A stretch of 59,228 nucleotides of DNA from Candidatus Meridianibacter frigidus (GTDB taxonomy: Bacteria > Vulcanimicrobiota > Vulcanimicrobiia > Vulcanimicrobiales > Vulcanimicrobiaceae), in the NCBI GenBank assembly GCA_003243975.1, contig QHBJ01000011.1, forward strand, positions 1-59,228. Direction: 5' to 3'. Shown here in pieces: positions 275-47,199 of this stretch. The position numbers and the translations under genes are program-made. Every line of letters starts with the position of its first letter. Positions within the stretch are counted from its first letter, which is position 1. The notes below the pieces were generated by a model that was given only the letters and a program-made list of their open reading frames with translations, ran no database searches and was not told where the DNA came from.

Positions 275-448
275 GTGACTGCCAAGGCGCGAGCGCTGCT
301 TATGCAGCTTGCCGAGCGCAAGACGTGGTCTTGCAGAGCGCCCGTTCATAACCCCATCGCGATGGGAGTTATCTTCTACCTGCTCATCGTCGGAATGATG
401 CTGCTTGGGTCGGCCACGCAATACCGGTTTTTCTACGGTAATTTTTAA
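275..448 (+). CDS. DltX-like single-pass membrane microprotein with C-terminal acyl-shuttle motif
   Basis: The gene encodes 57 residues from GTG 275; an in-frame ATG at 302 would give 48. A basic N-terminal segment is followed by one hydrophobic helix (about residues 28-46), and the protein ends in QYRFFYGNF. In the Dlt pathway the microprotein DltX has one helix and ends in a hexapeptide such as FIYNEF, whose Tyr carries the acyl group from the MBOAT protein to the SGNH transferase. The FFYGNF end, the size and the position just before an SGNH gene and an MBOAT gene all fit that role. The predicted acyl carrier would be Tyr54. No adenylation enzyme or carrier protein (DltA/DltC) is in the window, so the donor may not be D-alanine. 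The assignment rests on motif and context. Confidence 0.7.
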   Translation: MTAKARALLMQLAERKTWSCRAPVHNPIAMGVIFYLLIVGMMLLGSATQYRFFYGNF

Positions 449-449
449 G

Positions 450-1466
450 TTGTCTGCGTGGAAAAACTCGGCCGGCATTCCCGTAACGCTCGCTGTAACC
501 GTGATGCTCCTCGTTCTGACGGACTTGGGTTTGCATGCTTGGAACCTGCAGCCGCAACGTCTTCCCGAGCATTTCTCAAGCAGTTATCTCACTCGATATG
601 TCGATCAGTTCAAAGGCCAGGGCAATCTGCTGGTCGTTGTCGGCGACTCGGTCCTTTGGGGTTACGGTGTTCCGCCCCAGGACTCGACGGTCGCGGTGTT
701 GCGGCGCGAGTTCCCAAACCTGGCCGTTCTGAATCTCTCGTACGAAGCGGGCAGCCCCATCAACGTGGATTTCTTGCTGCGTTACTTGTTGGCACGCGGC
801 TTGCGGCCGCGAGCCGTGCTCTTCGACTTAAACCCGATCTCTTTCAATCAAACAACCAGCTCGTACGATACGCTCAATGCCGCGCTCGCCCGAGTCTGCG
901 TACCGGACCTCGTAAGCAGTTTCGACCGGGAAAGGCTCAATGCGGGCAGTTCGGCCGCCACGCGTGATGTTTCGGAGCGCACCGATCGCTTTCTCGAACA
1001 ACACTGGCTGCTCTACGGTCTCCGGGTGGACATGCACCAGGCACTCTTCGGCGACGTTGACGCATCCACCGCACTTTGGGGCCGCATCAATACTTCGCGC
1101 GCTTCGGGCGGCGCACCGGCTTACGCACAGATGTACGACTTGACCCCACTGGGACGGCAAAACGTCGCTTACGCGTATACCGAACACTCTTTTGCGATGC
1201 TGGGGGCGCAGCACATCCCGATGCTCGGCTTTCTCACGCCAACCAACCACGCACTGGTGCACACATTCGTCGACGTCCGGGCATACGACGAGAACCTTCA
1301 GCGCTTGCAGCAGTTGGGACACCGCTACGGCGTACGCATCTTAAACTTCGATCGCCTCCTGGCGCAGAAGAACTTCATCGATAACACCCATCTCACGACC
1401 GCCGGCAACCGTCGGTTGGCCAAGGCGCTCTCGCCCGCAATCGTACGGGCCCTCCATGTTTTTTAA
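450..1466 (+). CDS. Membrane-anchored SGNH hydrolase-like acyltransferase/esterase
   Basis: A protein of 338 residues from TTG 450, one base after the microprotein stop; an in-frame TTG at 405 would add 15 residues and overlap that gene. An N-terminal signal-anchor helix (about residues 9-28) precedes an extracytoplasmic SGNH-like domain. Block I reads VVVGDSVLWGYG with nucleophile Ser67, and block V reads DNTHLT with Asp311 and His314 (DxxH). In Dlt- and alginate-type systems such a protein passes the acyl group to the glycan. It overlaps the MBOAT start by 11 bases, so the two are likely co-translated. The acceptor polymer is unknown; a pure esterase cannot be excluded. Confidence 0.75.
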   Translation: MSAWKNSAGIPVTLAVTVMLLVLTDLGLHAWNLQPQRLPEHFSSSYLTRYVDQFKGQGNLLVVVGDSVLWGYGVPPQDSTVAVLRREFPNLAVLNLSYEAGSPINVDFLLRYLLARGLRPRAVLFDLNPISFNQTTSSYDTLNAALARVCVPDLVSSFDRERLNAGSSAATRDVSERTDRFLEQHWLLYGLRVDMHQALFGDVDASTALWGRINTSRASGGAPAYAQMYDLTPLGRQNVAYAYTEHSFAMLGAQHIPMLGFLTPTNHALVHTFVDVRAYDENLQRLQQLGHRYGVRILNFDRLLAQKNFIDNTHLTTAGNRRLAKALSPAIVRALHVF

Positions 1467-2667
1467 TACCTGGCAGTTTGCGATGTTTGCTCTGCTCGTG
1501 GTGGTCATCTACCGGCTGGCATCGCCGCGCTTGCGCGCTTACGTTCTCTTGCTTTCCGGGCTGATCTTTTACGCCAGCGCCGGCGTCGGGTACTTGTTAC
1601 TCATCGTCGCGGTCACACTTGCCACCTACGCGTGCGCGCGAATGCTCCAATCTGGAAAAGCCGGCATGCGCACGGGCGCCTTCGCGCTCGGTTTGCTGGT
1701 GCTGCTCGGCACGCTTTGCTACTACAAATACGCGCGCTGGATTACAAAATCGCTAGCCGCCCTCTTTCCGCACCTGCACCTCGGCGGCTTTGGGCCGCTC
1801 ATCGTCCCGCTTGCGATATCGTTTTTCACCTTTGAATTCATCCATTTTTTGAGCGACGTCCGTTCGGGCCGGATCGAAAGGTTTACGCTGAAAGAGTTCC
1901 TGACGTTCGCGTGGTTCTTCCCCACGATGGTCGCCGGCCCCATCAAGCGATACCGGCTCTTTTCGGCTCAGCTGGGCGATCTGCGCATGGCGCAAGGGCC
2001 GGACCTGCAAGCCGCGCTCTACCGCATAGCGTGCGGCTTATTCAAGAAAATCGCAATCGCCGACCCCGTGACCATTTTCGTCGATCCGCTCTTTCACCCG
2101 CAGCTGGGAATGACCGCACCGGTGTACGCCGTCGCGATGGTCGCCGCCACGGTCAAGATCTACTACGATCTTTCCGGTTACTCGGACATCGCGATCGGTT
2201 TCGCACAGCTCTTCGGCGTGCGCGTCCCCGAGAATTTCGCACGGCCGTACTGGGCCCCGAACATCGTAGAGTTCTGGCACCGCTGGCATATATCGCTAAG
2301 CTCGTGGGTTCGCGACTACGTCTTCGTTCCGCTCGCGAGAACGTGGCGCAAGGGAGCGCCGCCCTCGAGCACGCGGGGACGAAGCGTTACCGTTGTTTCG
2401 TTTATCGTCATAATGCTGATCATCGGAGTGTGGCACGGAGCCGGCTGGCATTTTGCCGCCTGGGGCTTGTGGAACGGCGTTTCGCTGGCCGCTTACTATC
2501 TGTGGCGCAACATGGTCGTCGTCCGGGTCGCGTTCCTGCGCAATGGATCGCTGGCACTCGACCTTGCCTCGATCGGGCTGACGTATGTGAGCTTTGCGTT
2601 TGGGCTCGCGCTGATCGCCGCTCCCTCCACCGCCGATGCCATGATGGTCTACCGGAGTTTTCTATGA
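1456..2667 (+). CDS. MBOAT-family membrane O-acyltransferase (DltB/AlgI-like)
   Basis: A polytopic protein of 403 residues starting at ATG 1456. It carries the family signatures: VAGPIKRYRLF, FWHRWHISLSSWVRDYVFVPL around residues 274-294, and the catalytic-histidine segment GVWHGAGWHF with His327. MBOAT proteins of this branch take an acyl group from a cytoplasmic thioester and transfer it across the membrane. AlgI-type members are usually about 470-520 residues; this one stops soon after the penultimate helices, at MMVYRSFL, so it resembles DltB in length and lacks the C-terminal extension that carries the acyl-shuttle motif in fused systems. The upstream microprotein could supply that motif. 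Its stop overlaps the next start (ATGA). Confidence 0.85.
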   Translation: MFFNTWQFAMFALLVVVIYRLASPRLRAYVLLLSGLIFYASAGVGYLLLIVAVTLATYACARMLQSGKAGMRTGAFALGLLVLLGTLCYYKYARWITKSLAALFPHLHLGGFGPLIVPLAISFFTFEFIHFLSDVRSGRIERFTLKEFLTFAWFFPTMVAGPIKRYRLFSAQLGDLRMAQGPDLQAALYRIACGLFKKIAIADPVTIFVDPLFHPQLGMTAPVYAVAMVAATVKIYYDLSGYSDIAIGFAQLFGVRVPENFARPYWAPNIVEFWHRWHISLSSWVRDYVFVPLARTWRKGAPPSSTRGRSVTVVSFIVIMLIIGVWHGAGWHFAAWGLWNGVSLAAYYLWRNMVVVRVAFLRNGSLALDLASIGLTYVSFAFGLALIAAPSTADAMMVYRSFL

Positions 2668-3152
2668 GCGGGCGCGCACTTCTGTACGTACTCTGTTTCG
2701 CGTCGGCGTTCGCGGGCATCGCATACGCGGCCGATTTGTCGTCTTTTCCGCCGCCGCGCACGATTCAAAGCCGCGACGGCGCCGGGCCCGTAATCTATTG
2801 GGACGCGACCGCCTACGTTGAACGCTTCGTTAGTCTGGGCACTCCGGCGCCCGAGGCGCTCGCGGCGCTGAAGTATGAAGCCGTGCGCCTCTTCGTTCGG
2901 CAGGCACCCGGCTTGGCGCGCAACGAGCGATACCTTCGCGTCGTTGTATCGTTCGCCAAGACCGGCGCAATCAGCAAGCGTTATCAGACCAAGACCTTCG
3001 AGGGCGTCGAGAATCTGCTAGCGGTGGAGGGAGCTTTACATCGTGGCATGCGTTTCGATAAGGGCTGGGGACCAGCGGCGCGTAGAGGCAAATTCCCCAA
3101 AGGCATCCGCGTGCGGCTCCTAAGCGAACTTCCATCCGAGCAGCAACCGTAA
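2664..3152 (+). CDS. Exported protein of unrecognised family (WDAT/AKTGAIS/TFEGVE type), copy 1
   Basis: A protein of 162 residues from ATG 2664, coupled to the MBOAT gene by an ATGA overlap. A signal peptide (about residues 1-22, ending AYA) precedes a mature domain with the segments YWDAT, FAKTGAIS and TFEGVENLL. The same segments, in the same order and spacing, occur in the exported protein at 17920-18399, so the two are paralogues. No family was recognised. Its place at the end of the acylation operon suggests a periplasmic or surface role with the modified glycan. The frame is open far upstream inside the MBOAT gene, but the signal peptide and overlap fix this start. Confidence 0.75.
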   Translation: MSGRALLYVLCFASAFAGIAYAADLSSFPPPRTIQSRDGAGPVIYWDATAYVERFVSLGTPAPEALAALKYEAVRLFVRQAPGLARNERYLRVVVSFAKTGAISKRYQTKTFEGVENLLAVEGALHRGMRFDKGWGPAARRGKFPKGIRVRLLSELPSEQQP

Positions 3153-4439: not shown

Positions 4440-7400
4440 ATGCTGAAGCGCAGGAGGCGCATGGCTGACTCGACCTTCGACGTAGCGGTTCCGGCTCCGC
4501 GGGTGCGCGCGCGCGAAAGCGTGCGCGTTTTCGATCGTTATGCGGTGGCGCTGGCGCTGGTCTTGCTCGCCCTGATCGCGACGCAAGTCACCGTTTCGAA
4601 CCTTCCGCCCAATAAGATTTTCGCCGGGCACGATAGTGGATTCTATACGCTCTACCCGCAGCAGCTTATGCGCACTTCGGCGGGAACCTGGGAAGTCAAG
4701 CACGACTTCGGCTTTCCGAACTTTCAGTCCATGGTCACGCTGCCGTATGCCCTAGCGGTCAAATTCGTCAATGCTCTCCATCTGAGCAGCTCGATGGTGG
4801 GACGCACATTTTTCGAGCTGCAGCTATTGTTTTTGGAGTTCGGCTCCTTTTGGCTGGCGTGGCTAGTTCTGGAGCGGACGTTTCCGGAAGCGTCTCGCAC
4901 TGTGCGCGCTATCGGAGCGTTCGGTGCAGCATTTCTTGCCACGTTTAACATCTTCACCGCCGTCCTCATGCTCTATCCCCCGAGCAATTTTCAGGGCGCG
5001 GTCGTCCTTTGGCCGGCCATCATCGCGTTCGAGCTTTATTTTCTGTGGCACCGTGCGCGACTATCAACGGCATTGCTCTTCGGACTTGCTCTTGCAGCCG
5101 CTAGCTTCGGCAACCCCGCGCACACCATTCTTGGCTTTGCGCTCGTTGTAGCGGTTTACGTGGCAAACGCCGCGGTCACGCGCGCCTGGCGGATCAAAAT
5201 CATGATGGTCACGGCCGGCGTAACATTCTTCTGCACCGGCTATTTTTGGCTGCCAGCCTTAGCGGCACTCTTCCTCTATCACGGCGGGATCGTTGTGCCC
5301 GAAGGCGCCGATCCGCTATCGCTCATCCGGTCCCAGGAGCTGATTGCCCAGCGATCCAGCATAGCAGCTCTGCTGCGCTTCGATGGTCTATTGTGGTGGC
5401 CGCGAACGCGAAATGCAGAGCTGTATGCTTCCTTTCCAATGATCGTGGCAACATTTTTGCCACCGATGGCGGCCATCTGCGCACTGCTTTCGAAAAGGGC
5501 GCTGGCGCGCGTGGCATGGATTCTCCTCTTGGTAGGACTCGAGCTGGCGAAGGGCGTGCATCCCCCCTTCTCGCTCAATATGTACTGGCTGATGACCCAC
5601 GTTCCGCTGTTCGCGGCTTTCCGTGAAGCGTACGACAAGTTCATCGTTTGCCTGCTGATCGCTCTGCCCACCGCGTTCGCGATTGGAATTGTGTTGCTTG
5701 GCCGGCATCAACCGTGGGGCAGGATCGCTGCGGGAGGCGCGCTCGCAGCAGTCGTTTTCGCGGCGTGGCCTTTTCTGGCGGGGCGTATCGCAGAACCCTA
5801 CTTCCTAACGACCGTCCCCCCCGACTATGTCAAAGTCGACCAGATGATGGGCGGCGATCCTCAGACGCGCGCGCTTTCGCTCCCGGGCGCGCCGGGTGAG
5901 ATCAATGTGACGAGCTGGTTCAAGGGCGGCAATTTTGAGAACTTTCTCTTTCGCGCACGCATAATTAACGGTGCCATCTTCAAAGCACGCAGCATTTCTG
6001 CCGCTACGCTATACGATGACGTCAAGCTTCAGCAGGCACGCGAACTTCCCGAGCTGATTGGGATGCTCGGCCTATATGGCATCGACTACGTACTCCTGCA
6101 CAAAGACTACCTGACGAGTTACCGCATGGCATGGGACTACGAACGCTACAAGGTGCTGGGACCTCTGCTCGCACAGTCCTCGGCGCGCTTTCTTGACCGA
6201 GACGCGCGTCTGCAGAAAGTCTATGAAGGCGACAATCTCGTCCTCTATCGCGTTCGCTCGGCAGCCACCCTGGGCAACGCCTACGGCTCGTACGAAGCGG
6301 GGGTCGAAACCGGCTACCAGAACAACCTGCTCGGCGCGGCTAATTCCGGAATCACCGAAGCAGGACGCCATCCGATACTGCTTTTTACCGGAAACCAGCG
6401 GCCCGTTGCTAGCATGCAAGACGAGTACGATGACAGCGCGCTTTTCCAGCGATCCGCTTACGTCGTGCGCGCCCCACTGATCGACGAAACGCCGGCACTG
6501 TATCGCGAGCAGATGCGGTTGCCCGTGCACCAAGTGGAATCCGCATCGGCGCATTTTTCCAGCAGCGCGAAGCCAACCTACTACCTTTTTATGCAGCCGC
6601 ATGGCGATTGGCTGTCCTTGCCAGTGGCACGTAAGGAGAACATCGTTGGCTCGTTCATAGCGGGTGCGGCCGAGCGCGCCACGCCACGCGTGGTCGTTGA
6701 ATCCGACAGCGTGCCCAAAGAGGTCGTGGCAGATTTCTTTGGAGCCGACGGCATGTCGGCCTGGCGCCTACGCCCGTTTACCGATGAGCCAACGCCCGAC
6801 GACAATCTCTCCGAAGGGAGCCCGACGCATCAACCAGGCGCCTTTGTCGCGCGAGAGGTTCCATCTTCTACAGTCATCAGTCCAACTTCTATCGCATATC
6901 AGTTTCGCTTGTCGAACGACGCGCGCACGGACGAATACATTGTGGCCTATCGCGATACCCCGGAGATTCCGCTGCTCGGCGATCCCACGGTCAGCTTCGA
7001 TTACGAGCTCCCCAACAATACTATGGTCGCCGCTTGGTTACGCTTCGACCTTCGCGGCCCCGCAGGGCGGCGCGTGTATCTCGACAGGGAGCTTGACTTC
7101 AGCGGACGCCTAACGGGCTACGATTTGCGCGACGGATTGCAGGCGGCCCTCGATCACCGCTTCGACGAACTACTTGCGCTGCACCAGACCGATCCCCAAT
7201 GGATCGCCACCCAAAAGTTCTTCAACCCCGAACAAGCCGACAACTACCGTCTGACCGGCATGCGTTTGATCGTCGGAAAGCATCCGGGATCCGACCTCTC
7301 GGCGATGCCGAGAAACTTCAGCTTTACCGCACGCTCTCTGCGCGTGGCTCTGGGCACGTCTTCTCCACCGACATATCCCGTCCGCGGTTTTCACAGCACT

Positions 7401-8723
7401 TTTATGGGAGCAAAGAGTAAAAGCACAGTAGCGAACTTTGAAAGCGTCTACACAACGGTGCAAAACGGCGCGCTTCTTGCGAATGCCACGGTGAAGAATG
7501 GTCGCTTGCCGACGGATCAGACACTAGCGCACCATGTCGTAACATTCAAACTCAGAGATGGGACGACCACCGTCGTCAATGTTTTGCGGGAAACTGACGA
7601 CGCCTACATAGTCGCGGACGCCTTGCAGCGCCGCAAACTCTTCAAGAATTTGGTTGATTCGATCGTCTCCATCGCCGCAGGCGGTTCGGGACTTTACTCG
7701 ATGATGATGCCGCTTCCGCGTCTTGACATCAACAAGTTTCCTGAATTGCACGTGCGCTATCTGCAGGGCAGCCCCAACGAGCAAGTAGAGCTGCGCGTCG
7801 GATTGCAAAGTAAATTTGGTTTTATGGAAGTCCAGCCGGGCGTCGGCGCTCTGGGCGACCAACCCATTGGAATCCCCTCGGAAGCGGTCCACCAAGCCAG
7901 TCCGGTTGGTCTGGACACGTTCGTGGCGCTCGATAGCCGCATGCTTACGCCCGCCACTGACTTGGGGTGGCGCGAAGCGGTTTTTGATATGCGGGAAGTT
8001 GCACAATACCGCGCGCGGGCGCTGCAGGTCGTTCCCAAATACGTCAGACTCACTTTTCTGATTACGCCTCCCGCCGGAGATGAAACGACGACCTCATTTT
8101 CGCTCGGCTTCGGCGATGTCGCCTTTCTCGGGACGGGCGCGCTTGCGCGGCTTCGGCCGTCCGGCCAGACGCTCAAACTTGATGGACGCCCGCTGCGGCC
8201 TGTAAGCCAGCACAAAGTTGCCGGGGAACCCGACGTGATCTCCTTGGACTATGCGCCGGTCACGGTCGCTCGCGGTGCGCACCAGGTCACAAGTGCGTTC
8301 GGCGAGCCCTGGAGCGTGAGGAGCATCGCGTTAGTTCCCACCGCGGTGCGAAGCATTCCGGAGCACCCCTCCGTAAGCATCCGTCACGTAGACGATGAAC
8401 TCTTCGCGGTGCACGTTGATGGCGCGGCGCGCCCGGTGTGGCTCGCGTTCGCCGAAACGTACCACCAGGGCTGGCGCCTGATCCAAGCGGATGCGCCACG
8501 CAACCGCATCGCGTGGCTTCTCTCCTTGCGCTGGCTTGGAAAACAGGCGGGAAATCACATAGCCGGCAATGCGTACAATAACACGTGGTTTGTGGCCAAT
8601 CCCACCGCCCGCGATTTCGTTATCGATTTTGCCCCGCAGGACTTTGGCATCGCCGGGATGGCCGTGGCCATGGTGACCCTACTCGCTGCGCTGGGAACGG
8701 CGCTGGTTCTATGGCGCCGATAG
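4440..8723 (+). CDS. Very large polytopic membrane protein, GT-C-like glycosyltransferase
   Basis: A protein of 1427 residues from ATG 4440; ATG 4461 is an alternative with AGGAGG only three bases upstream. About a dozen helices occupy residues 35-440 and one more ends the protein. Between them lies a long extracytoplasmic region of beta-rich sequence. The first external loop carries FAGHDSGF (Asp65), the position where GT-C enzymes using polyprenyl-phosphate sugars hold a catalytic acid. The C-terminal part has YHQGWRL and YNNTWFV, matching the end domain of the proteins at 15617, 36658 and 39132. Membrane-bound sugar transfer is inferred from this architecture. It overlaps the next gene by 13 bases. 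Confidence 0.6.
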   Translation: MLKRRRRMADSTFDVAVPAPRVRARESVRVFDRYAVALALVLLALIATQVTVSNLPPNKIFAGHDSGFYTLYPQQLMRTSAGTWEVKHDFGFPNFQSMVTLPYALAVKFVNALHLSSSMVGRTFFELQLLFLEFGSFWLAWLVLERTFPEASRTVRAIGAFGAAFLATFNIFTAVLMLYPPSNFQGAVVLWPAIIAFELYFLWHRARLSTALLFGLALAAASFGNPAHTILGFALVVAVYVANAAVTRAWRIKIMMVTAGVTFFCTGYFWLPALAALFLYHGGIVVPEGADPLSLIRSQELIAQRSSIAALLRFDGLLWWPRTRNAELYASFPMIVATFLPPMAAICALLSKRALARVAWILLLVGLELAKGVHPPFSLNMYWLMTHVPLFAAFREAYDKFIVCLLIALPTAFAIGIVLLGRHQPWGRIAAGGALAAVVFAAWPFLAGRIAEPYFLTTVPPDYVKVDQMMGGDPQTRALSLPGAPGEINVTSWFKGGNFENFLFRARIINGAIFKARSISAATLYDDVKLQQARELPELIGMLGLYGIDYVLLHKDYLTSYRMAWDYERYKVLGPLLAQSSARFLDRDARLQKVYEGDNLVLYRVRSAATLGNAYGSYEAGVETGYQNNLLGAANSGITEAGRHPILLFTGNQRPVASMQDEYDDSALFQRSAYVVRAPLIDETPALYREQMRLPVHQVESASAHFSSSAKPTYYLFMQPHGDWLSLPVARKENIVGSFIAGAAERATPRVVVESDSVPKEVVADFFGADGMSAWRLRPFTDEPTPDDNLSEGSPTHQPGAFVAREVPSSTVISPTSIAYQFRLSNDARTDEYIVAYRDTPEIPLLGDPTVSFDYELPNNTMVAAWLRFDLRGPAGRRVYLDRELDFSGRLTGYDLRDGLQAALDHRFDELLALHQTDPQWIATQKFFNPEQADNYRLTGMRLIVGKHPGSDLSAMPRNFSFTARSLRVALGTSSPPTYPVRGFHSTFMGAKSKSTVANFESVYTTVQNGALLANATVKNGRLPTDQTLAHHVVTFKLRDGTTTVVNVLRETDDAYIVADALQRRKLFKNLVDSIVSIAAGGSGLYSMMMPLPRLDINKFPELHVRYLQGSPNEQVELRVGLQSKFGFMEVQPGVGALGDQPIGIPSEAVHQASPVGLDTFVALDSRMLTPATDLGWREAVFDMREVAQYRARALQVVPKYVRLTFLITPPAGDETTTSFSLGFGDVAFLGTGALARLRPSGQTLKLDGRPLRPVSQHKVAGEPDVISLDYAPVTVARGAHQVTSAFGEPWSVRSIALVPTAVRSIPEHPSVSIRHVDDELFAVHVDGAARPVWLAFAETYHQGWRLIQADAPRNRIAWLLSLRWLGKQAGNHIAGNAYNNTWFVANPTARDFVIDFAPQDFGIAGMAVAMVTLLAALGTALVLWRR

Positions 8724-17919: not shown

Positions 17920-18399
17920 GTGTCTCTTCCTCGCTTTATCAAAACACTGATGATCTGCTGCTGCGTGCTTCTGCCGGTTGGCGGCGCTTTTGCTGCCGAC
18001 ATGCCCGAGGGCAGCGTTATTGTTACCAAGACGCACGGCGATGCGCTCGCGATCTGGGACGCAACACCGGTCCTCACGGGTCTGGTGAGTCGCAAAGCCG
18101 GCCACGACGACATTATGCGCGAACTTGAATCCGATGCCGCGACCATCATGGTGCAGAAGCTTCCGGTCTACAAAAAGACCGCACGCACGCTGACGCTCAT
18201 GGTTCTGTATGCGAAGACCGGCGCAATCAGCCCGACCTATAACGTCGCTACGTTCGAAGGCGTCGAAAAGCTGCTCACGCTCAGGGCATCCACGCGCACG
18301 CGCTTGGCAGGCGATCCGGCCAGAGACTTTCGTGCGGGCAAAACACCCGCGTCGGTTCAACTCCGCGTGATCGGAAAGCTGCCGCCGGAAATCCAGTAG
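17920..18399 (+). CDS. Exported protein of unrecognised family (WDAT/AKTGAIS/TFEGVE type), copy 2
   Basis: A protein of 159 residues from GTG 17920, with GAAGGAG eight bases upstream fixing the start. A signal peptide ends near GGAFAAD. The mature part carries IWDAT, YAKTGAIS and TFEGVEKLL in the same order as the protein at 2664-3152. A frame that is open upstream overlaps the divergent GT-C gene and is not used. It stands alone between a GT-C gene and two NHL-SGNH genes. The function is unknown; it is presumably periplasmic and tied to glycan export or modification. Confidence 0.75.
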   Translation: MSLPRFIKTLMICCCVLLPVGGAFAADMPEGSVIVTKTHGDALAIWDATPVLTGLVSRKAGHDDIMRELESDAATIMVQKLPVYKKTARTLTLMVLYAKTGAISPTYNVATFEGVEKLLTLRASTRTRLAGDPARDFRAGKTPASVQLRVIGKLPPEIQ

Positions 18400-18402
18400 C
18401 CG

Positions 18403-20208
18403 CTAGCGCGCAAGCCATGGGCGCCGGCGCTCAAGCGCGTCGGCGATGCCCTTCGCCACAATCGCCCGCCCAAATTCAGTGAAATGCGGGTCTTCGGTCA
18501 TGAAGAGCGGTGGGTGGTTGGGCGCGGCTTCCGCATCCATGAATGCCGGCCACAGATTCAGGATCTCGGCACCTGATTTGTTTAGCGCCGTATTCAGCAC
18601 ATCGCCCACGCGCGCGTCCGGCTCCATGGAGTTGCGTTCGAGCGCGGCCCAGGCACCCTCACCCGCAGATAGCTGGTACGGCATTGGATGGGTGACGATC
18701 AAAAGCGGAATGCGCGCCTGACGAAGCATTTGATCGATGCGCTGGATCTGCATCGAGAGTTTATCGGACCACTCCGCGGTGCGAGCCGGCAGTTCTTCTT
18801 CCGGAATGCCGAAGCTCTGGGCGACGGTAACGGAGTTAACGTCCAAGACGATCGCGTCGTACAGGTGTCCTAAACCGGTAACCGTTTGGAGGTACTGCTC
18901 CGCGGCGTCAGCCTTTGAACCTGCGGCAATCGCTGAAACATTGGGCTTGAGCCGGAGCGTCGCAAGCGAGCGCGGTGCGCGACTCGACGATAGCTGTTGC
19001 TCGATCATCGCTTCGATGGAATCATTCCACTCGGCGTTCTGCCAAATGAAGGAGTTCCCCATAAATCCAATCTGATAAGTACGCGCGCTCGCATTGAACG
19101 TTGGTAACAAACTAAGGGAGGTAATGACGATCGTGCGGCGTGCAATAGGCCCGATGCGGCGAATACGCCGGTTCCCGCTATCGGCCACGACGACCGCACC
19201 CTGTGGGTCGATGGCAATGCCGGTCGGAGCGTCAAAAAGAGAATCGGCGCTGGAGCCGTCCTTAAATCCCCCGGTGTCGCCGGATGCATCGTTCAAGGTG
19301 CGGCCGCCGATAATGCGCGGCTCGGTCAGCGCCGCGTGAAGGAATCTGACCGTATTCGTTCGGGGATCCGTATAGACGGCAGTTTGCTCGTCGAGCACCG
19401 CGACCCCAAATGTGTCACCGATCGTTCGGTAACCCTGCAGAAACCGCTGACCGTCTACACGGCGCGTCTCAGCGGACGGAAAGATGGAAAACTGGTTGGA
19501 ATTTTGCTTGATTACCATGCCGGTCGCGCTGGCGACGTAGATCTTCGGTCCTTGGGCAGATGCCGCGACCGCAACGCCGAGGGGAGCAGTCCCCATGGCG
19601 ATCGTCGAAACCGTGCCGTCGCGCGCGATCCTTCGCAGTCCGCTCTGGGGGTCGGCGACATAGAGATTCCCGTCGCGATCCAACGTTAGCCCCAGAGGCT
19701 CGGTAAAACTCGCGGACGTGCGCGCACCGTCTGCTCGGCCGATATGGTCCGGCGAGCCCGCAAAGGTCGAAACGCTTCCTCTTGGATCGATGCGGCGAAT
19801 GCAGTGGTTGTCCGCGTCGGCTACGTATACGATGCCGCTGGAATCCACGGCAACGCCGGTCGGGCGATTGAAGCGTGCAACGCTCCCAGGCCCGTCGCGG
19901 TATCCACCCGGGACCCAAAAACCGCGCGAATCCAGCGCTCCTCCGCCGGCCAACGTCGTTACGCGGCCATTTGCGCGCAGCACGCGAATGCGCTGAGCAG
20001 CCGCGTCGGCGATAAACAGATTGCCTTTGCGGTCGTACGCGATTCCCATCGGGAATAAGAAGGTGGCCCGTCGCGCCGGGCCGTCGGCGAACCCCGTCGC
20101 CCCCGAGCCCGCGATCGTCGCCACGCGTATCGGCGCGGGCGCTGCTGAACTGATTCCGTTCCAGAGGAGCAGCGTGAACGCAACGGCTGCCGCTGCCGGC
20201 ATCCTCAT
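18403..20208 (-). CDS. Exported NHL beta-propeller/SGNH-like fusion protein, paralogue A
   Basis: A protein of 601 residues from ATG 20208, which overlaps the upstream stop as TGATG; a GTG at 20223 is an alternative. A signal peptide (residues 1-23) precedes four to six NHL-type repeats (about 30-350), seen as units such as GIAYDRKGNLFIADAAAQRI, each followed by a TxAGS-type strand. The C-terminal domain is SGNH-like: FMGNSFIW with Ser386, a conserved Asn in LDVNS, HPMPYQL, and EDPHF with Asp573 and His575. Block I has GNS instead of GDS. NHL propellers bind proteins or glycans, and SGNH domains act on acyl esters. An envelope glycan acyl esterase or transferase is a reasonable guess. Last gene of the ugd operon. 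Confidence 0.8.
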   Translation of the reverse strand: MRMPAAAAVAFTLLLWNGISSAAPAPIRVATIAGSGATGFADGPARRATFLFPMGIAYDRKGNLFIADAAAQRIRVLRANGRVTTLAGGGALDSRGFWVPGGYRDGPGSVARFNRPTGVAVDSSGIVYVADADNHCIRRIDPRGSVSTFAGSPDHIGRADGARTSASFTEPLGLTLDRDGNLYVADPQSGLRRIARDGTVSTIAMGTAPLGVAVAASAQGPKIYVASATGMVIKQNSNQFSIFPSAETRRVDGQRFLQGYRTIGDTFGVAVLDEQTAVYTDPRTNTVRFLHAALTEPRIIGGRTLNDASGDTGGFKDGSSADSLFDAPTGIAIDPQGAVVVADSGNRRIRRIGPIARRTIVITSLSLLPTFNASARTYQIGFMGNSFIWQNAEWNDSIEAMIEQQLSSSRAPRSLATLRLKPNVSAIAAGSKADAAEQYLQTVTGLGHLYDAIVLDVNSVTVAQSFGIPEEELPARTAEWSDKLSMQIQRIDQMLRQARIPLLIVTHPMPYQLSAGEGAWAALERNSMEPDARVGDVLNTALNKSGAEILNLWPAFMDAEAAPNHPPLFMTEDPHFTEFGRAIVAKGIADALERRRPWLAR

Positions 20209-22004
20209 CACCTTGATTTCCACGGCCGCATCTTCAGCAACGCTTTCGCAATCTCGGCCGCGGCAACTTCACGACCATGCACGGAGAAGTGTGGATCCTC
20301 GGTTGCGTAGAGCGCACGATGCGACGGCGACGCGAGATCCGCTTGGAACGCCGGCCATAAATCGATCACAGGGACACCCGACTTGCGAATCGCGGAGCGC
20401 AGAAGGCCTTTGAACGTGAGATCGAGCGGCGCGGGTTTCGAAGTTAATTCGTACCACGCGCTCTCCTGCCAGCTGAGCTGATTCGGCAGCGGCTCGATTA
20501 CGATGGCGAGCGGCACGCCGGCCGCGGCGGCTTGCCCCTTGAGTATTCGCAAGTCTTGCGTCAATGGATCCTGCCACTTTACCGCATTGCTCGAAACATC
20601 CGCGAGCTTGATGCCGAACGATCCCGCAATGTCGATCGCATTGATGTTGAGGAGCAAAGTATTAAAGAGTCCCGTGTCCATGACGATTTTCAAGTATTGG
20701 TCCGTTGCGTCCAAACTGCCCATTCCCCAGACCGGAATAACGCGCACACTCGTGCTACTCGGGAACTCCGCATTGGAACCGATGAGGTGTTGGAGCCGCC
20801 CCTCGATGGAAGTATCCCAGTCGGTGTTGTACCAGACGAAGGAATCGCCCGCCAATGCAATCTTAAAGTCTTGCGGCGAGAATCCGCGAGCAACCCCCAA
20901 CAAGTCAACCGATAACGGTATTGCTTCGCGGCGATCCGGCGGCGTAAGCGTTCTGATTCGCCGGTTGCCGGCGTCCGCTACGACCAGCGCGCCGTCAGCT
21001 CGCATCGCAATTCCAAGCGGTCCGCTTAATCGAGCTAGCGGCCCGGTTCCATCCACATAGCCGCCCGTGTCGGCGGAGGCGTCTTCGTTGGGGGCGCCGG
21101 CCAGAATGCGCTCCTGACCATACCGCGTGTCGAGGTATCGCACCGTGTTGCTGCGCGCATCCGTGAAGACGACTGTATGGTCGTCGAGGGCCGCGACCCC
21201 GAAAGGGTGCCCCAAGGCTCGTCCACCTTGCAGAAAACGGTCGCCATCCAGGTGCGTCTCGAATGGTGAAAACCGCTCGATCTTTGCATCGGGCGTGCGC
21301 AGAATGAGCCCCTCGAATCCCGCAACGAATAGCGTCGGGCCCGCAGCGCCATCGAATACCGCGACGTTCGTCGGCTGATTCCCGACTTGAATGTAGCTGA
21401 CGACACCGGCCGGATCGACTTTGCGTACCTGCGTGAGGGGATCGGCAACGTAAAGGTTTCCAATCTTGTCGAATGCCAACCCCATCGGACGTTGAAATGT
21501 CGCCGTCTGGCGCGGGCCGTCGGCCATTCCGGCCGATGAGGGGGAGCCCGCAAAGGTCGTCACATCACCGCTTGGAGTCATGCGGCGTATGCAATGGTTG
21601 AAACTGTCGGCAATATAGAGGTCGCCATCCGGCCCGAACGCGATGCCGGCCGGGCGGTTAAATCTTGCTTGCGGGCCTGCGCCGTCGGCATAACCACCAG
21701 GGACCCAGAATCCGCTATCGACCGCGGGTCCGCCGCCCGCGACCGTGTGCACGTTGCCGTTTCTGTCCATAACGCGAACGCGCTGCGCCGCACCGTCGGC
21801 GATGTACAAGTTGCCCTCTCTGTCGAACGCCATTCCCATCGGCAGCATGAAGGTGGCGGCAAGGGCGGGGCCGTCTTCGAAGCCCGCGCGGCCCGAACCC
21901 GCAATGGTGCGCACGGTCACGGCTTGCGCATCCGCGACGGAGACCGCGGACAGAGCAGCCACCACACCGAGTGCGGCGCCAAGAAGCAGGCGTGGAAGCT
22001 TCAC
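20208..22004 (-). CDS. Exported NHL beta-propeller/SGNH-like fusion protein, paralogue B
   Basis: A protein of 598 residues from GTG 22004, placed just after the SDR stop; GTG 22013 and ATG 22037 are alternatives that overlap the SDR gene. The signal peptide ends at VADAQ. NHL-type repeats cover about residues 30-350 (for example GMAFDREGNLYIADGAAQRV). The SGNH-like part has LAGDSFVW with Ser388, Asn in LNINA, EPLPNQL, and EDPHF with Asp570 and His572. This is the only one of the five paralogues with a canonical GDS block. It overlaps paralogue A by one base, so the two are probably made together. Confidence 0.8.
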   Translation of the reverse strand: MKLPRLLLGAALGVVAALSAVSVADAQAVTVRTIAGSGRAGFEDGPALAATFMLPMGMAFDREGNLYIADGAAQRVRVMDRNGNVHTVAGGGPAVDSGFWVPGGYADGAGPQARFNRPAGIAFGPDGDLYIADSFNHCIRRMTPSGDVTTFAGSPSSAGMADGPRQTATFQRPMGLAFDKIGNLYVADPLTQVRKVDPAGVVSYIQVGNQPTNVAVFDGAAGPTLFVAGFEGLILRTPDAKIERFSPFETHLDGDRFLQGGRALGHPFGVAALDDHTVVFTDARSNTVRYLDTRYGQERILAGAPNEDASADTGGYVDGTGPLARLSGPLGIAMRADGALVVADAGNRRIRTLTPPDRREAIPLSVDLLGVARGFSPQDFKIALAGDSFVWYNTDWDTSIEGRLQHLIGSNAEFPSSTSVRVIPVWGMGSLDATDQYLKIVMDTGLFNTLLLNINAIDIAGSFGIKLADVSSNAVKWQDPLTQDLRILKGQAAAAGVPLAIVIEPLPNQLSWQESAWYELTSKPAPLDLTFKGLLRSAIRKSGVPVIDLWPAFQADLASPSHRALYATEDPHFSVHGREVAAAEIAKALLKMRPWKSR

Positions 22005-22005
22005 C

Positions 22006-22773
22006 TTATCCACCGCGGTAAAGGCCGCCGTTGACATTGATGGCCTGACCGGTGATGTACGTGCCTTCCGTGACGAGGTACCGCACGCAGCTCGCGACTT
22101 CTTGCGGCTCGCCCACGCGCCGCATCGGGATGTTCTCGACGATTTCTGCACGCACGTCGGCCGGGATCGCGTCCCACATCCCCGTTCCGATGTAGCCGGG
22201 GCAAATGGCATTCACGGTGATGCCGTAGCGTGCGACCTCGAGCGCAAGCGCCTTGGTAAACGAAACGAGTGCGCCTTTAGCGGCGGCGTAGTTGGTTTGT
22301 CCAAACGCGCCAATTTGTCCGACGATCGAGGCGATGTTGATCACGCGGCCGTAACCGCGGGGGGCCATGTTTTCGACCGCAAAGCGCGTGCAGTACATCG
22401 CGCCGTTCAAGTTTGTCTGCAGCACGTCGTTCCACTGGTCGTCGGCCATCTTACGAAACGACCGGTCGCGCGCGATGCCCGCGTTGTTAACCAGAATGTC
22501 AACACCGTGCCCGCTCTGCGAAAGCTGCGCAAAAAGGTCTTGCGCGCTGGCCATCTTCGAAACATCGCACTGGCGGCCTTCCGCGCCCCCGCCGGCAGCT
22601 TGTACTTCGTCCACAACGTCCTGCGCTTGCGCTTGGCTGGTGCGGTAGTTGACCACAACGTACGCCCCGTGCGCCGACAAGTCGCGCGCAATCGCGGCGC
22701 CGATGCCGCGCGACGCGCCGGTGATTAATGCGGTTTTCCCCTCAAGGGTGCCGTTCCGCGCTCGAACGTTCAT
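22006..22773 (-). CDS. Short-chain dehydrogenase/reductase (FabG/PhaB-like)
   Basis: A cytoplasmic protein of 255 residues. It has the NAD(P) motif TGASRGIG, the structural NNAG motif, catalytic Ser in NIASIVGQ, YAAAK with Tyr and Lys, and the C-terminal NVNGGLY. FGQTNYAAAKGA is the form seen in acetoacetyl-CoA and 3-oxoacyl-ACP reductases. In this operon it follows UDP-xylose synthase by a 4-base overlap, so it might instead reduce a keto-sugar or make a hydroxyacyl donor for glycan acylation. That is inference; sequence alone supports only the family. Confidence 0.85.
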   Translation of the reverse strand: MNVRARNGTLEGKTALITGASRGIGAAIARDLSAHGAYVVVNYRTSQAQAQDVVDEVQAAGGGAEGRQCDVSKMASAQDLFAQLSQSGHGVDILVNNAGIARDRSFRKMADDQWNDVLQTNLNGAMYCTRFAVENMAPRGYGRVINIASIVGQIGAFGQTNYAAAKGALVSFTKALALEVARYGITVNAICPGYIGTGMWDAIPADVRAEIVENIPMRRVGEPQEVASCVRYLVTEGTYITGQAINVNGGLYRGG

Positions 22774-28748: not shown

Positions 28749-30563
28749 TTAGCGCGCGAGTTCGGCAGCAATCGCCCGCGCGACCACCGCACGGCCAAAT
28801 GCCGTAAAATGGAAGTCGTAACTTCCAAACAGCGCGGGGTGATGCGGTTGTTTGACTGCGGCCAACAGCACGGGCCACAGATCGAGAACCCGCGCTCCTG
28901 AAGCGCCGGCCGCCGTAGCGAATGCTTGCTCGATTGCCGTATTGGGAATGATGGCTCCCCCCAGCATTCCATACATAATCGATTCGTTCGGTGCAAGCTC
29001 CCACGGCAGAGGTTGCAGCACCACCAGCAGCGTGGCGCCATTCCCTCGGCAGACATCGCTTAGGGTTCGCAAGCGCTGGCCGAATCCAGGGCCCCAAACC
29101 TGCGGATCTAGAGAAAGCTGGCGCGAGTTCGCCGGTCCCAAACGTTGCACGTCCCCAAGAATGCTTGCGCTGTTGACTTGCAGCACGACAGCATCGAACC
29201 TCCGGCCACGCACGAGCGCCAGCAGATTCTCCATCGATTCGGATAACGTGGACTCTGGGAGATAAAGGGGCGTAACCTCAGGGTGGCTTCCTTTTGAATG
29301 CCCGACTGCGGCGGATGGAAGCGACGCCTCCAGTTCAGATGCGATGGAGGATGTCGAATCGGTGTCCCACCAAATCCACGAGTTTCCGATGTAACCGATC
29401 CGGTATTTGGAGCTGTCTGACTGCGTCAGGCGTTCCTCCGGAATAGTGTGCGCGGTTGGTTGTGCAAAGCCGTGCAGCATTCGAATTCGCCGCGTTCCCG
29501 CGTCGGCTACCGCCAAGTCGCCTGAGTTTGACATCGCGATACCCATTGGCGCGCCGAAGCGCGCGGCGGCTCCTGCGCCGTCTCGATTGCCGCCGCCACT
29601 GAGTCCAGCATCCTCGGTGGCCGGACCGGCCAAGATAGAGAGCGCACGCGTGTCGAGATCGAGGGTCCGTATGGAATCACCGCGCAAGTCGGTAAAGGCG
29701 ATCGTGTGGTCTCCGACGGCGGTCATACCGAACGGGTTGCCCAGTGGCCGCGCTCCCTGCGTAAGCTCGTGATACGGTGGCAGCTCGTACATCTTGAAGT
29801 CTGCGAATTGATCGATGACATCAAACTGTCCATGCCGATCGCCTTCAACGTACTTGATGCCATGCGCATCGGCGATGACGATGAGCGACGACCTTGCGTT
29901 CCGGCCGGGCAACACCACGAGATTGAAAGCCGAGAAGACAGGGAATTGCAACGTGCGCACGACTTCCGATTTGGATATGATCTCGCGGATCCCGACATCG
30001 GCGTCGGCAACATAAAGATTATCTTCAGCGTCGGTGGCAAGTCCAATGGGTCGTGAGAACCGGGCTAGCTTGCGCGGGCCGTCTCGGTATCCGGGCGCGA
30101 ACGGTGATCCGGCATACGTGCTGACCACGCCAATGGGAGAAATGGAGCGAATGCAATGATTATAGGTGTCGGCGACGTAGAGGGTGCCGTCACGTGTGAT
30201 GGCAATTCCGCTGGGGGTTGAAAATTTTGCCTGAGCGCCGGCTCCGTCTGTGTATCCGCCGTCCACCGCGAACCCGTTGCGCGCTCCCGAACCCGCAATC
30301 GTCACGACGGCGCCGAAGCGGTCAACGCGACGAACGCGTTGCGCCGCTGAGTCCACCACGTAGAGATATCCATGCGTGTCGTACGCAAGAGCCGAGGGCA
30401 TCAAATAACTCGCGGAGAGCGCCGGGCCATCGGCAAAACCGGGTGCACCAGAGCCGCTGAACGTCGAAACGATTACTCCGTCGGCAATATCCTGCGCCGC
30501 GACGGACTGCGACCAGCCGAACGCCGCACCGAAGAGAACGATAAAAAGTGTCGCGCCCTTCAA
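28749..30563 (-). CDS. Exported NHL beta-propeller/SGNH-like fusion protein, paralogue C
   Basis: A protein of 604 residues from TTG 30563, whose start overlaps the upstream stop as TTGA. A signal peptide (about 1-23) is followed by NHL-type repeats, for example ALAYDTHGYLYVVDSAAQRV and SGIAITRDGTLYVADTYNHC, up to about residue 370. The SGNH-like part has YIGNSWIWWDTD with Ser395, Asn in LQVNS, QPLPWEL, and YDFHF with Asp583 and His585. It is the last gene before the shared terminator. Its closest relative by pattern is paralogue D, immediately upstream, suggesting a tandem duplication. Confidence 0.8.
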   Translation of the reverse strand: MKGATLFIVLFGAAFGWSQSVAAQDIADGVIVSTFSGSGAPGFADGPALSASYLMPSALAYDTHGYLYVVDSAAQRVRRVDRFGAVVTIAGSGARNGFAVDGGYTDGAGAQAKFSTPSGIAITRDGTLYVADTYNHCIRSISPIGVVSTYAGSPFAPGYRDGPRKLARFSRPIGLATDAEDNLYVADADVGIREIISKSEVVRTLQFPVFSAFNLVVLPGRNARSSLIVIADAHGIKYVEGDRHGQFDVIDQFADFKMYELPPYHELTQGARPLGNPFGMTAVGDHTIAFTDLRGDSIRTLDLDTRALSILAGPATEDAGLSGGGNRDGAGAAARFGAPMGIAMSNSGDLAVADAGTRRIRMLHGFAQPTAHTIPEERLTQSDSSKYRIGYIGNSWIWWDTDSTSSIASELEASLPSAAVGHSKGSHPEVTPLYLPESTLSESMENLLALVRGRRFDAVVLQVNSASILGDVQRLGPANSRQLSLDPQVWGPGFGQRLRTLSDVCRGNGATLLVVLQPLPWELAPNESIMYGMLGGAIIPNTAIEQAFATAAGASGARVLDLWPVLLAAVKQPHHPALFGSYDFHFTAFGRAVVARAIAAELAR

Positions 30564-32416
30564 GGATTACGCAGCCATGGGGCCCAGCGCAACAGTTCGC
30601 GTGCGACCGCTTGGGCCACGGTTGCGCGGCCGTGCACTGAAAAATGCGGGTCGTACGTTCCAAAGAGCGGCTGATGTCCCGGCACGTTCATCTCCGTGCG
30701 AAAAATGCTCCACATGTCGACGAAGCGCAACCCCGACGCGCGCACAGCTTCACGCACCGGCTTCTCGATTGCGCCTTGTGGCACGAGATTGCCCTGGAGC
30801 ACCCCGTACATAACATTTTCATTGCTTGCCAGCTCCCAAGCAAATGGGTGGCTCACCACCAGACATGCAATTCTGGCCTGCAGGCAGTCGCGATGTATCC
30901 CGGCCAGCGTGTCCTTCAGAGCCGGCAACCATCGCTGCGCGTCCGCGGCCAGCTCGATGGAAGACGCCGGCCCGATATTCACGTCGCGCCGGTGCGGAAT
31001 GGCAAAGGTGTTGAGTTGCACCACGACAGCATCGATCGGGCGCACCAAAAGCAATGACCGCAAGTACTCACGTAACGCACGAATATTCGCCCCGACGAAG
31101 TACATTGGAATGACCTGCGCCTTGCGCCGCCCACGCTGAAAGAAGCGATCGGCCTCCAGCCGCGCTTGTAACTGCCCTTGAATCGAATCTTCCCAATCGG
31201 TGTCCCACCACGCGAATGAATTACCGAGGTATGCAATCGTGTACGCGCCGCGCGGCGCTGGCGGCGGAAAAAGAGCTTTGGGCGAAGGGCTGAACGGACT
31301 GCGAAACGCCCTGCGAGTAAGCACGCGAATCTGTCGGCTGCCCGCATCTGCAACGGCTAGCACACCATTCGGCCCAGCCGCCATCCCCATTGGACCGTTG
31401 AAGCGGGCCGCCGCACCCGACCCATCGCGCGTGAGGCCGTTGTTCGCCCCCTCTTCCGTCGCCTGACCGGCCAGTATCGCCAAGCGGTTTGACTTAAAAT
31501 CGAGCGCGCGAATGGTGTTGAAGCGCAGATCGCTATAGACGATTGCACCGTCCCCCGCCAATGCGAGCCCGTAGGGGTTGCCCAAGGGGCGCAACCCCTG
31601 TGTTACTTTGTGGCGCGCTGGGATCTGATATATCTTATAATTCGCGATCTGATCCAGAACGTTGAAATCTACCACGCTGGTCCCGCTCGCGATATGTATT
31701 CCCAAGACGTCTGCAATCACCATTACGTCCGAATCCGTGTCCGGTTGCCGCGCGATGAGTACGTTGAACGGCGTAAAGAGTAACATCTTGAAAGTCGTGA
31801 CCGCGCCCGTGCGCGCGTCAATCTCACGAAGCCCAACGTCCGCATCCGCTACATAGAGATTGTCTCGCGAATCGACCGCCAGCCCGAGCGGACGCGAAAA
31901 TGTGGCTGCCCGCCGCGGACCGTCGGCATTTCCAGCGCGAAGGGAGCCGGCATAGGTCGTAACCATTCCGTGGGAAATTGCTCGGATGCAATGATTGTAT
32001 GTGTCCGATACGTAGATCGTACCGGAGTGCGCGATCACGATACCGCTCGGAGCGTGGAACTTCGCGCGCAATGCAGGACCATCCGCGTATCCGCCGTCGA
32101 CCCACAACCCACTCTCACGCGTTTCGCCTGATCCGGCGACGGTTACGACGCGCGCCGTCACTCGGGCAACGCGTCGGATTCGCTGTGCTGCAGTGTCCGC
32201 CACGTAAAGGTTGCCGCTTGCGTCGTACGCCAATGCGGTCGGCATCAAGAAGCTTGCCTGCGCCGCTGGACCGTCCGCAAAGCCCGCCGCACCCGAGCCG
32301 GCAAGCGTGCCTACAACAACTCCGGACTCGACATTTTGTGACTGAACAGAAGTTGGGCTAAGGCAAGCCGCCGCAACGAAAGCAATCGAAAATGCTCCCA
32401 AAGATATTCGGTGCAT
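30560..32416 (-). CDS. Exported NHL beta-propeller/SGNH-like fusion protein, paralogue D
   Basis: A protein of 618 residues from ATG 32416 with GGA upstream; a GTG at 32428 is an alternative. The signal peptide spans about 1-26; a Cys at residue 18 lies within it. NHL-type repeats include ALAYDASGNLYVADTAAQRI and SGIVIAHSGTIYVSDTYNHC. The SGNH-like part has YLGNSFAWWDTDW with Ser400, Asn in VQLNTF, HPFAWEL, and YDPHF with Asp589 and His591. It follows a methyltransferase gene by about 60 bases on the same strand and is coupled to paralogue C by a 4-base overlap. Confidence 0.8.
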   Translation of the reverse strand: MHRISLGAFSIAFVAAACLSPTSVQSQNVESGVVVGTLAGSGAAGFADGPAAQASFLMPTALAYDASGNLYVADTAAQRIRRVARVTARVVTVAGSGETRESGLWVDGGYADGPALRAKFHAPSGIVIAHSGTIYVSDTYNHCIRAISHGMVTTYAGSLRAGNADGPRRAATFSRPLGLAVDSRDNLYVADADVGLREIDARTGAVTTFKMLLFTPFNVLIARQPDTDSDVMVIADVLGIHIASGTSVVDFNVLDQIANYKIYQIPARHKVTQGLRPLGNPYGLALAGDGAIVYSDLRFNTIRALDFKSNRLAILAGQATEEGANNGLTRDGSGAAARFNGPMGMAAGPNGVLAVADAGSRQIRVLTRRAFRSPFSPSPKALFPPPAPRGAYTIAYLGNSFAWWDTDWEDSIQGQLQARLEADRFFQRGRRKAQVIPMYFVGANIRALREYLRSLLLVRPIDAVVVQLNTFAIPHRRDVNIGPASSIELAADAQRWLPALKDTLAGIHRDCLQARIACLVVSHPFAWELASNENVMYGVLQGNLVPQGAIEKPVREAVRASGLRFVDMWSIFRTEMNVPGHQPLFGTYDPHFSVHGRATVAQAVARELLRWAPWLRNP

Positions 32417-32478
32417 AGCAGCGTCCACGGCCGGGAACTACCGGAAGGGCGTGTGCGTGCCCTGCCCATTGCGGATCA

Positions 32479-45406: not shown

Positions 45407-47199
45407 GGCGTACCATGTTGAGCGAGCAACTTTGTTAGACCTCGTATGACTTCGTGCGCAACGAGGTCGCGGCCATGCTGGGTAAGATGGGCATCCACCG
45501 AGCCATAGATTGCCTTATGGCTCGGCGACCGAATGTCCGTGGTAAAAGACGGCCAAAGACTGATGTAGTCGATGCCGGAGTCGCCAAGAATCGCACGCAC
45601 AGATTGATCCCAATCAATCGGCGTCAGCGCTGCCTGCGGTACTTTGATCCATGTCGCTTCCGAAGGCCCAAGATCGAAGTGAGTGGGAACGTCAACTACG
45701 AGCAGCGGAATGCGCGCCTTCTCAAATGCTGCGCGTAAGTGCAAAAACAGGCGCGTAGCCGGTGCCGCGAACGCTCCCGGCGTATTGCCCAACGCCGAGC
45801 CAAACGTTCCAGAGTTCACCGAAAACACCACCGCGTGGTAGCAGCGCATCTCTGTGAGTAGCTCCAAGTATGACGTTACGGCATCAAGTTCCGCCGCAAA
45901 GAATTGGACCGGTGTCACGACATATCGCCGGCTTCCGGCGCCGGCATTCATCGCAGCTTCAAGTTGACCGGGAATCGATCCGGCCCAGTCGGTGTCCCAC
46001 CAGATGATCGAGTTGCCCACATACGCGATTTGAAAGCTCCGCGAATTTGGGCTGCAGTTCATATCCTGGCTAGTCGCAAGAATCGCACCCCGCAAGTCCA
46101 ACCCGCTAATCTTGCGGATACGTTTGTTGCCGCTGTCCGCAACGACGACCGCACCATGGTCGTAGAGGACGCCGAGCGGCGCATCGAAGAGCGATTGCGA
46201 AGCGCCGCCATCGGCAAAGCCGCCCGAGGACTCGGGCGCAACATCAGTCGCCTGACCACCGAGTAGCCGCGAGTACGTATAGGGCGCGGCATCATCGAGG
46301 AGCCGCACCGTGTGGGTGCGCGAATCGCTATACACGACAGCGTGTTCGTTAATGGCAGCCAGCGAGATTGGATATCCAATGGGAATATCGCCCTGCGTTC
46401 CTCGAACGGCGTCTTCGTCAGATCCCTGTGTTAGCGGAGACGATCCCGTTTGAACGACGATCGGCGCCGTGATTCGCTTCGATTTTCCATCCGGAAAATG
46501 GATGAGCAGGCCGCGCGCATCCGCCACGAAGATGGTTTTCCCGCGTTTCGATTCATAAACCGCGACGGCGAGGGGGCGTTCTGTTGCAAGCGGCACCGTC
46601 GAGACGGTACCCGCCGCATCGATTTCTCGTAGCCCGCCCTCCAAGTCCGCAATGAAGATGTTGCCTTCTCGATCGGCGGCCATGCCTATTGGATGCGAGA
46701 ACAACGCCGCAGTGCGGAGCCCGTCTTGCATGCCGGCTTTGAACGGCGTGCCGGCATACGTTGAAACCATTCCATCTGACCCGATGCGCCGAATGACCGA
46801 CGTGTAGGTGTCGGCCACAAATATTCCGCCCTTCGTCACCGCCAAACCGCTCGGCGCGTTGAACTGGGCTTGAACTGCTGGTCCATCGCGGTATCCACCC
46901 GGCACCCAGAGCCCCGAGCCAGCGACCTCGCCCGAACCGGCCAGCGTTCGCACAATGCCATCTTTGGAGATGACGCGGATGCGCTGCGCCCCGGTATCGG
47001 CTACATAGATGTTTCCGCTTTCATCCTGCGCTAAGGCGGTTGGAAACAAGAATTGTGCGCTGGCCAACGGCCCATCTTTGAATCCCGCAACACCGGAGCC
47101 AGCAAACGTCGCGACCCGCAGATTTTCCTGCGCCAGCGCACACGCCGGAATAACCGCAAATCCAGCAAGAAAGAGCAAGGAAACGGATAGGCGTTTCAT
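45403..47199 (-). CDS. Exported NHL beta-propeller/SGNH-like fusion protein, paralogue E
   Basis: A protein of 598 residues from ATG 47199. The signal peptide ends near CALAQE. NHL-type repeats include ALAQDESGNIYVADTGAQRI and SGLAVTKGGIFVADTYTSV. The SGNH-like part has YVGNSIIWWDTDW with Ser397, Asn in FSVNSG, VPTHFDL, and VDAHL with Asp569 and His571. The last block is the most diverged of the five. It is the first gene of a leftward pair with the GH20 lipoprotein and is divergent from the histidine kinase at 47360. Confidence 0.8.
   Translation of the reverse strand: MKRLSVSLLFLAGFAVIPACALAQENLRVATFAGSGVAGFKDGPLASAQFLFPTALAQDESGNIYVADTGAQRIRVISKDGIVRTLAGSGEVAGSGLWVPGGYRDGPAVQAQFNAPSGLAVTKGGIFVADTYTSVIRRIGSDGMVSTYAGTPFKAGMQDGLRTAALFSHPIGMAADREGNIFIADLEGGLREIDAAGTVSTVPLATERPLAVAVYESKRGKTIFVADARGLLIHFPDGKSKRITAPIVVQTGSSPLTQGSDEDAVRGTQGDIPIGYPISLAAINEHAVVYSDSRTHTVRLLDDAAPYTYSRLLGGQATDVAPESSGGFADGGASQSLFDAPLGVLYDHGAVVVADSGNKRIRKISGLDLRGAILATSQDMNCSPNSRSFQIAYVGNSIIWWDTDWAGSIPGQLEAAMNAGAGSRRYVVTPVQFFAAELDAVTSYLELLTEMRCYHAVVFSVNSGTFGSALGNTPGAFAAPATRLFLHLRAAFEKARIPLLVVDVPTHFDLGPSEATWIKVPQAALTPIDWDQSVRAILGDSGIDYISLWPSFTTDIRSPSHKAIYGSVDAHLTQHGRDLVAHEVIRGLTKLLAQHGTP

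Follow-up and report, generated by a model that had tools for sequence, protein, structure and literature searches.

Several acyl transfer systems that pair an MBOAT protein with an SGNH protein have been described, and they differ in where the acyl shuttle is encoded. In the Dlt system of Bacillota (DltX-DltB-DltD with DltA and DltC), a short DltB-like MBOAT of ~400 aa and an SGNH partner are found together with a separate single-helix microprotein that has a C-terminal FxYxxF motif. This microprotein, DltX, has been described as the separate carrier of the Dlt pathway (PMC12148441). The PatA/PatB, AlgI/AlgJ and WssH/WssI systems also consist of an MBOAT and an SGNH protein with an FxYxxF motif, have no carrier-protein genes and presumably use an acyl-CoA donor, but in PatA/PatB-type pairs the motif is part of the MBOAT itself, carried on additional C-terminal helices. 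PatA uses acetyl-CoA to acetylate the tyrosine of the hexapeptide at its own C-terminus, and an acetylated FIYANF peptide acts as the donor for PatB (PMC12148441). A 2025 paper stated that MBOAT/SGNH pathways other than Dlt have no DltX-like microprotein (PMC12148441), and a small number of Gram-negative plant pathogens have been reported to carry Dlt genes (PMC5541007). We found no description of a detached shuttle in non-Dlt MBOAT/SGNH pathways in the open-access literature.

The window analyzed here is a whole contig (G000:C24, 59,228 nucleotides) of a 1.95-Mb genome that is 96% complete; MAGs of Eremiobacterota/Vulcanimicrobiota are its closest named relatives. At its left edge, four genes are encoded on the plus strand in the order X-SGNH-MBOAT-E, with neighbors that overlap or are at most two bases apart (Table 1), which bears out the tight cluster of a microprotein (X), an SGNH protein and a short MBOAT that had been proposed in an earlier note made from the sequence. 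The locus resembles the Dlt system in its separate microprotein, short MBOAT and SGNH partner but differs from it in the gene order, the likely diderm host and the lack of DltA and DltC; moreover, X has no match to the DltX model (DUF3687), the MBOAT falls under the TIGR04091 cut-off and the SGNH protein matches DUF1574. Unlike the PatA/PatB-type pairs, the locus encodes the motif on a separate gene, as the earlier note had claimed in setting it apart from the fused Gram-negative systems, and the extra helices are absent; the MBOAT has no motif of its own. We consider it highly probable, by analogy with the described systems, that these genes encode an acyl relay across the membrane whose shuttle is detached, in which an acyl group would pass from the MBOAT to Tyr54 of X, to Ser67 of the SGNH protein and on to an envelope polysaccharide.

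Table 1. Coordinates of the X-SGNH-MBOAT-E genes and of related features in the window.
Feature	Position	Strand	Evidence
X, 57-aa single-helix microprotein, FFYGNF end	275-448	+	family alignment, pN/pS
SGNH protein, N-terminal membrane anchor	450-1466	+	DUF1574 E 9.5e-9, weak GDSL matches, catalytic residues
Short MBOAT acyltransferase, 403 aa	1456-2667	+	PF03062 E 1.4e-21, structure model
E, small secreted protein	2664-3152	+	homologues beside X loci
1427-aa protein, apparently membrane-embedded	4440-8723	+	
Second E copy	17950-18399	+	
NHL-SGNH protein	18403-20223	-	
NHL-SGNH protein	20208-22211	-	
NHL-SGNH protein	28749-30563	-	
NHL-SGNH protein	30560-32428	-	
NHL-SGNH protein	45403-47199	-	

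X has the architecture of DltX, with one hydrophobic helix in 57 aa and a C-terminal FxYxxF motif. Its stop codon is located at 446-448 and the Tyr54 codon at 434-436; the GTG start at 275 is uncertain, the reading frame being open from 188. A profile search of 117 genomes, which represent one class of Eremiobacterota/Vulcanimicrobiota, identified 14 intact copies of X in 11 genomes, and the family was confined to this class in a survey of 149 genomes of the phylum. The genomes sampled are mostly MAGs. In the family alignment, none of the 14 intact copies departs from Gly31, Phe52, Tyr54 or Phe57; most copies end in FIYTDF, and the FFYGNF ending of the window was also found in genomes G106 and G114. 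The pN/pS of the family is 0.31-0.55 at high synonymous divergence, and the codons of the motif change synonymously while the residues stay the same. On this conservation and these pN/pS values, the possibility that X is a chance open reading frame was rejected. When seven X proteins were compared with Pfam and NCBIfam up to an E-value of 10, no family and no DltX-type match was found, and PDB sequence searches with X, the SGNH protein and E returned nothing useful. One variant of X (L118, 247-423) ends in FYYGPQF, with one residue more between the tyrosine and the last phenylalanine than in FxYxxF. Additionally, one decayed locus was found in genome G016, where X has no stop codon and the SGNH gene is broken; no MBOAT was found there.

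The MBOAT of the window ends one residue past the PF03062 profile, without a C-terminal motif, so the usual C-terminal extension is missing as the earlier note had stated. Gene E overlaps the MBOAT stop codon through an ATGA sequence, which leaves no room for such an extension. The predicted structure (mean pLDDT 91.9) matches the DltB structures 8jem and 6bug over its whole length with TM-scores of 0.74-0.77, and the model and DltB stop at the same place. Among 80 loci taken from genome contigs, almost every complete MBOAT extends beyond the profile by roughly 72-125 residues and ends in FxYxxF, whereas the short ones end at most 19 residues past the profile and have no motif. The short type is represented by 16 MBOATs in the 117 genomes of the class, all scoring above 480 bits, compared with ~340 bits or less for SGNH-MBOAT fusions of ~880 aa and ~135 bits for AlgI-like MBOATs; the MBOATs surveyed were selected by similarity only. 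A frameshifted or truncated MBOAT was rejected as an explanation in view of the 16 short ones. None of the orthologues proved to be full length or to have its own motif.

The short MBOATs and X occur together. X was found upstream of the short MBOAT in all 14 loci for which the upstream DNA was assembled, the remaining two of the 16 being cut by contig ends, and an SGNH gene lies between them in 12 of the 14. A second full X-SGNH-MBOAT copy is located in the window's own genome on contig 21 (the window is contig 24). The distribution is complementary, as complete long MBOATs have their own FxYxxF and short MBOATs have X. The earlier note had read the locus as a split acyl relay, and the gene evidence supports this reading, since X, including its C-terminal residues, is conserved beside this type of MBOAT and the trio recurs in relatives. 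It could be argued that X or the short MBOAT is an artefact of gene calling or assembly, because X is close to the contig edge and its start codon is uncertain. Recurrence in 11 genomes, the two copies on different contigs of one genome, purifying selection and the overlap of the next gene with the MBOAT stop make this reading scarcely credible, and it is already refuted by the relatives.

It was also determined whether X corresponds to a particular part of the long MBOATs. When the X profile was compared with 41 sliding windows of long MBOATs, the C-terminal window gave the best score (37.1), while windows without the C-terminal helix scored 15.6 or less; with the motif cut from both sides the C-terminal window was still first (18.6 vs 12.1 or less). 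Because the match is specific to the C-terminal window, X is regarded as the counterpart of the last helix of the long MBOATs, and the profiles suggest that X is a last helix that became detached or that long MBOATs captured such a helix. In the MBOAT tree none of the split-type MBOATs falls within the large clade of own-motif MBOATs (SH-aLRT 99), and the SGNH-MBOAT fusions form a separate clade. A single clade of all split MBOATs was not rejected, with p-AU values of 0.45 without DltB and 0.24 with DltB, which is on a long branch and whose placement is unsure. The tree includes only one DltB, a PDB entry, because six further genomes searched for DltB references gave none above the cut-off.

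One alternative is that X plays a structural or assembly role in the MBOAT-SGNH complex, and that its motif binds the acyl group without carrying it. The conserved glycine and the helix may serve packing, and the acyl chemistry of X is itself proposed by analogy. In that case the short MBOAT would lack a shuttle tyrosine altogether, whereas every complete long MBOAT examined has one, and the invariant residues of X include the Phe-x-Tyr and the final Phe of the known motif; we therefore regard a purely structural X as quite unlikely. A second alternative is a diverged Dlt D-alanylation system with DltA and DltC encoded elsewhere in the genome, given that DltB is the closest structural match of the MBOAT and DltX is the only stand-alone shuttle that has been published. 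DltA (TIGR01734) did not score above the cut-off in any of 13 genomes, including the 11 that carry X, while two control genomes passed. The window's genome encodes one PP-binding domain, in a 90-aa ACP-like frame on contig 35, and no DltC candidate was found beyond this expected single ACP. X has no Pfam or NCBIfam match, and with the DltB model TIGR04091 (cut-off 375) the MBOAT reaches 185.5 bits, much like ordinary own-motif MBOATs of Lachnospiraceae. With no DltA above the cut-off and a single carrier-protein domain, the locus is not regarded as a Dlt system, in agreement with the earlier note, which had reported neither dltA nor dltC. A Dlt system was rejected on DltA, DltC and the family scores of X and the MBOAT, and the diverged form is very improbable.

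In the preferred acyl relay, His327 of the MBOAT would accept an acyl group from a donor in the cytoplasm, which is most likely acetyl-CoA, and the group would be esterified to Tyr54 within the C-terminal FFYGNF of X, whose helix may dock in the position taken by the last helix of long MBOATs. On the periplasmic side, acyl-Tyr54 would acylate Ser67 of the SGNH protein, which would pass the group to the envelope polysaccharide made by the surrounding locus. That the group is acetyl is a guess made because carrier genes are absent. The observations are the gene content, the conservation, the lack of DltA and of any DltC candidate, the short MBOAT and the profile equivalence of the X helix; that the proteins form a complex, which acyl group moves, which way it moves and onto which polymer are our inferences. 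The most likely start codon of the SGNH gene is TTG 450, with which the numbering of Ser67 in the earlier note is correct; that of Tyr54 and His327 is likewise correct. Ser67, Asp311 and His314 are invariant in six aligned SGNH proteins, and Asp311 and His314 complete the catalytic triad with Ser67. His327 is invariant in 62 aligned MBOATs, so that the tyrosine of X, the histidine of the MBOAT and the Ser-Asp-His of the SGNH protein are all invariant in the alignments. Against the relay stand both X-MBOAT pairs of genome G033, which have no adjoining SGNH gene (one pair is at a contig edge), and the one X ending in FYYGPQF.

Single-chain SGNH-MBOAT fusions of ~880 aa with a FIYFKF-type end are common in the same class of Eremiobacterota (for example L021 3747-6395 and L090-L096). 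They contain the same three parts in one chain and link the three parts of the relay. In a model of one such SGNH-MBOAT-motif fusion the MBOAT part is good, and the SGNH part and the C-terminal helices have low confidence (pLDDT at the end 57-76).

Separate shuttle microproteins were also found in Verrucomicrobiota and Melainabacteria (L030, L013, L214, L215 and L217). L013 (Melainabacteria) and L030 (Opitutaceae) were the exceptions to the own-motif rule in the first set of loci; their short MBOATs are accompanied by a separate microprotein ending in FIYANF or FIYVAF. Searches of those phyla added G160, G272, G332 and a second copy in G060, the latter without an MBOAT frame in the 9 kb read. 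As in the window, the MBOAT is short and the shuttle is separate, but the microprotein of this second set lies after the MBOAT or SGNH gene and its helix has no recognizable relation to that of X. One X-like protein, in G311 (L178/L213), ends in FIHVAF, where His replaces the shuttle Tyr. This locus may be decayed, because no MBOAT frame was found beside it in the 9 kb read. The second set is undescribed in the literature searched; along with gene E and the second copy in the window's genome, it goes beyond the earlier note. Judging from gene content, at least two groups of diderms have detached shuttles without DltA or DltC, and the X-SGNH-MBOAT loci contradict the statement that non-Dlt pathways lack a microprotein (PMC12148441). 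A carrier of this kind also exists as a separate gene in diderms that do not have the D-alanine machinery, so its detached design is more widespread than the literature indicates. A detached shuttle is separable from a carrier-protein donor, and the evolution and exchangeability of shuttles become testable. Since the genes for detached shuttles are unannotated by Pfam and NCBIfam, more such systems have probably been overlooked.

The window holds glycosyltransferases, sugar epimerases and dehydrogenases, as expected for the polysaccharide locus named in the earlier note, and in G106 many of these glycan genes recur next to that genome's copy of the system; on these two grounds a polysaccharide target is proposed. 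The host is likely a diderm, as had been suggested; Omp85 was found, though the Pfam model for LptD found nothing. E homologues are located directly downstream of the MBOAT in nine of the 14 X loci and nearby in two more, and E has no Pfam family. The second E copy of the window lies beside two of five paralogous genes whose secreted products combine an NHL beta-propeller with an SGNH-like domain at the C-terminus (G[DN]S ... DxH[FL]). No literature naming both the NHL repeat and SGNH was found. Homologues of these NHL-SGNH proteins adjoin X-SGNH-MBOAT operons in L112, L113, L136, L138, L139, L141 and L142. As X is not tethered to the MBOAT, a single charged copy might serve several extracytoplasmic SGNH acceptors, including the NHL-SGNH proteins, and X would then be a general envelope acyl carrier with E as a hub accessory; we consider this speculative and rather unlikely. 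The 1427-aa protein of the window has no match in Pfam, and a homologue is encoded beside the glycan genes of G106.
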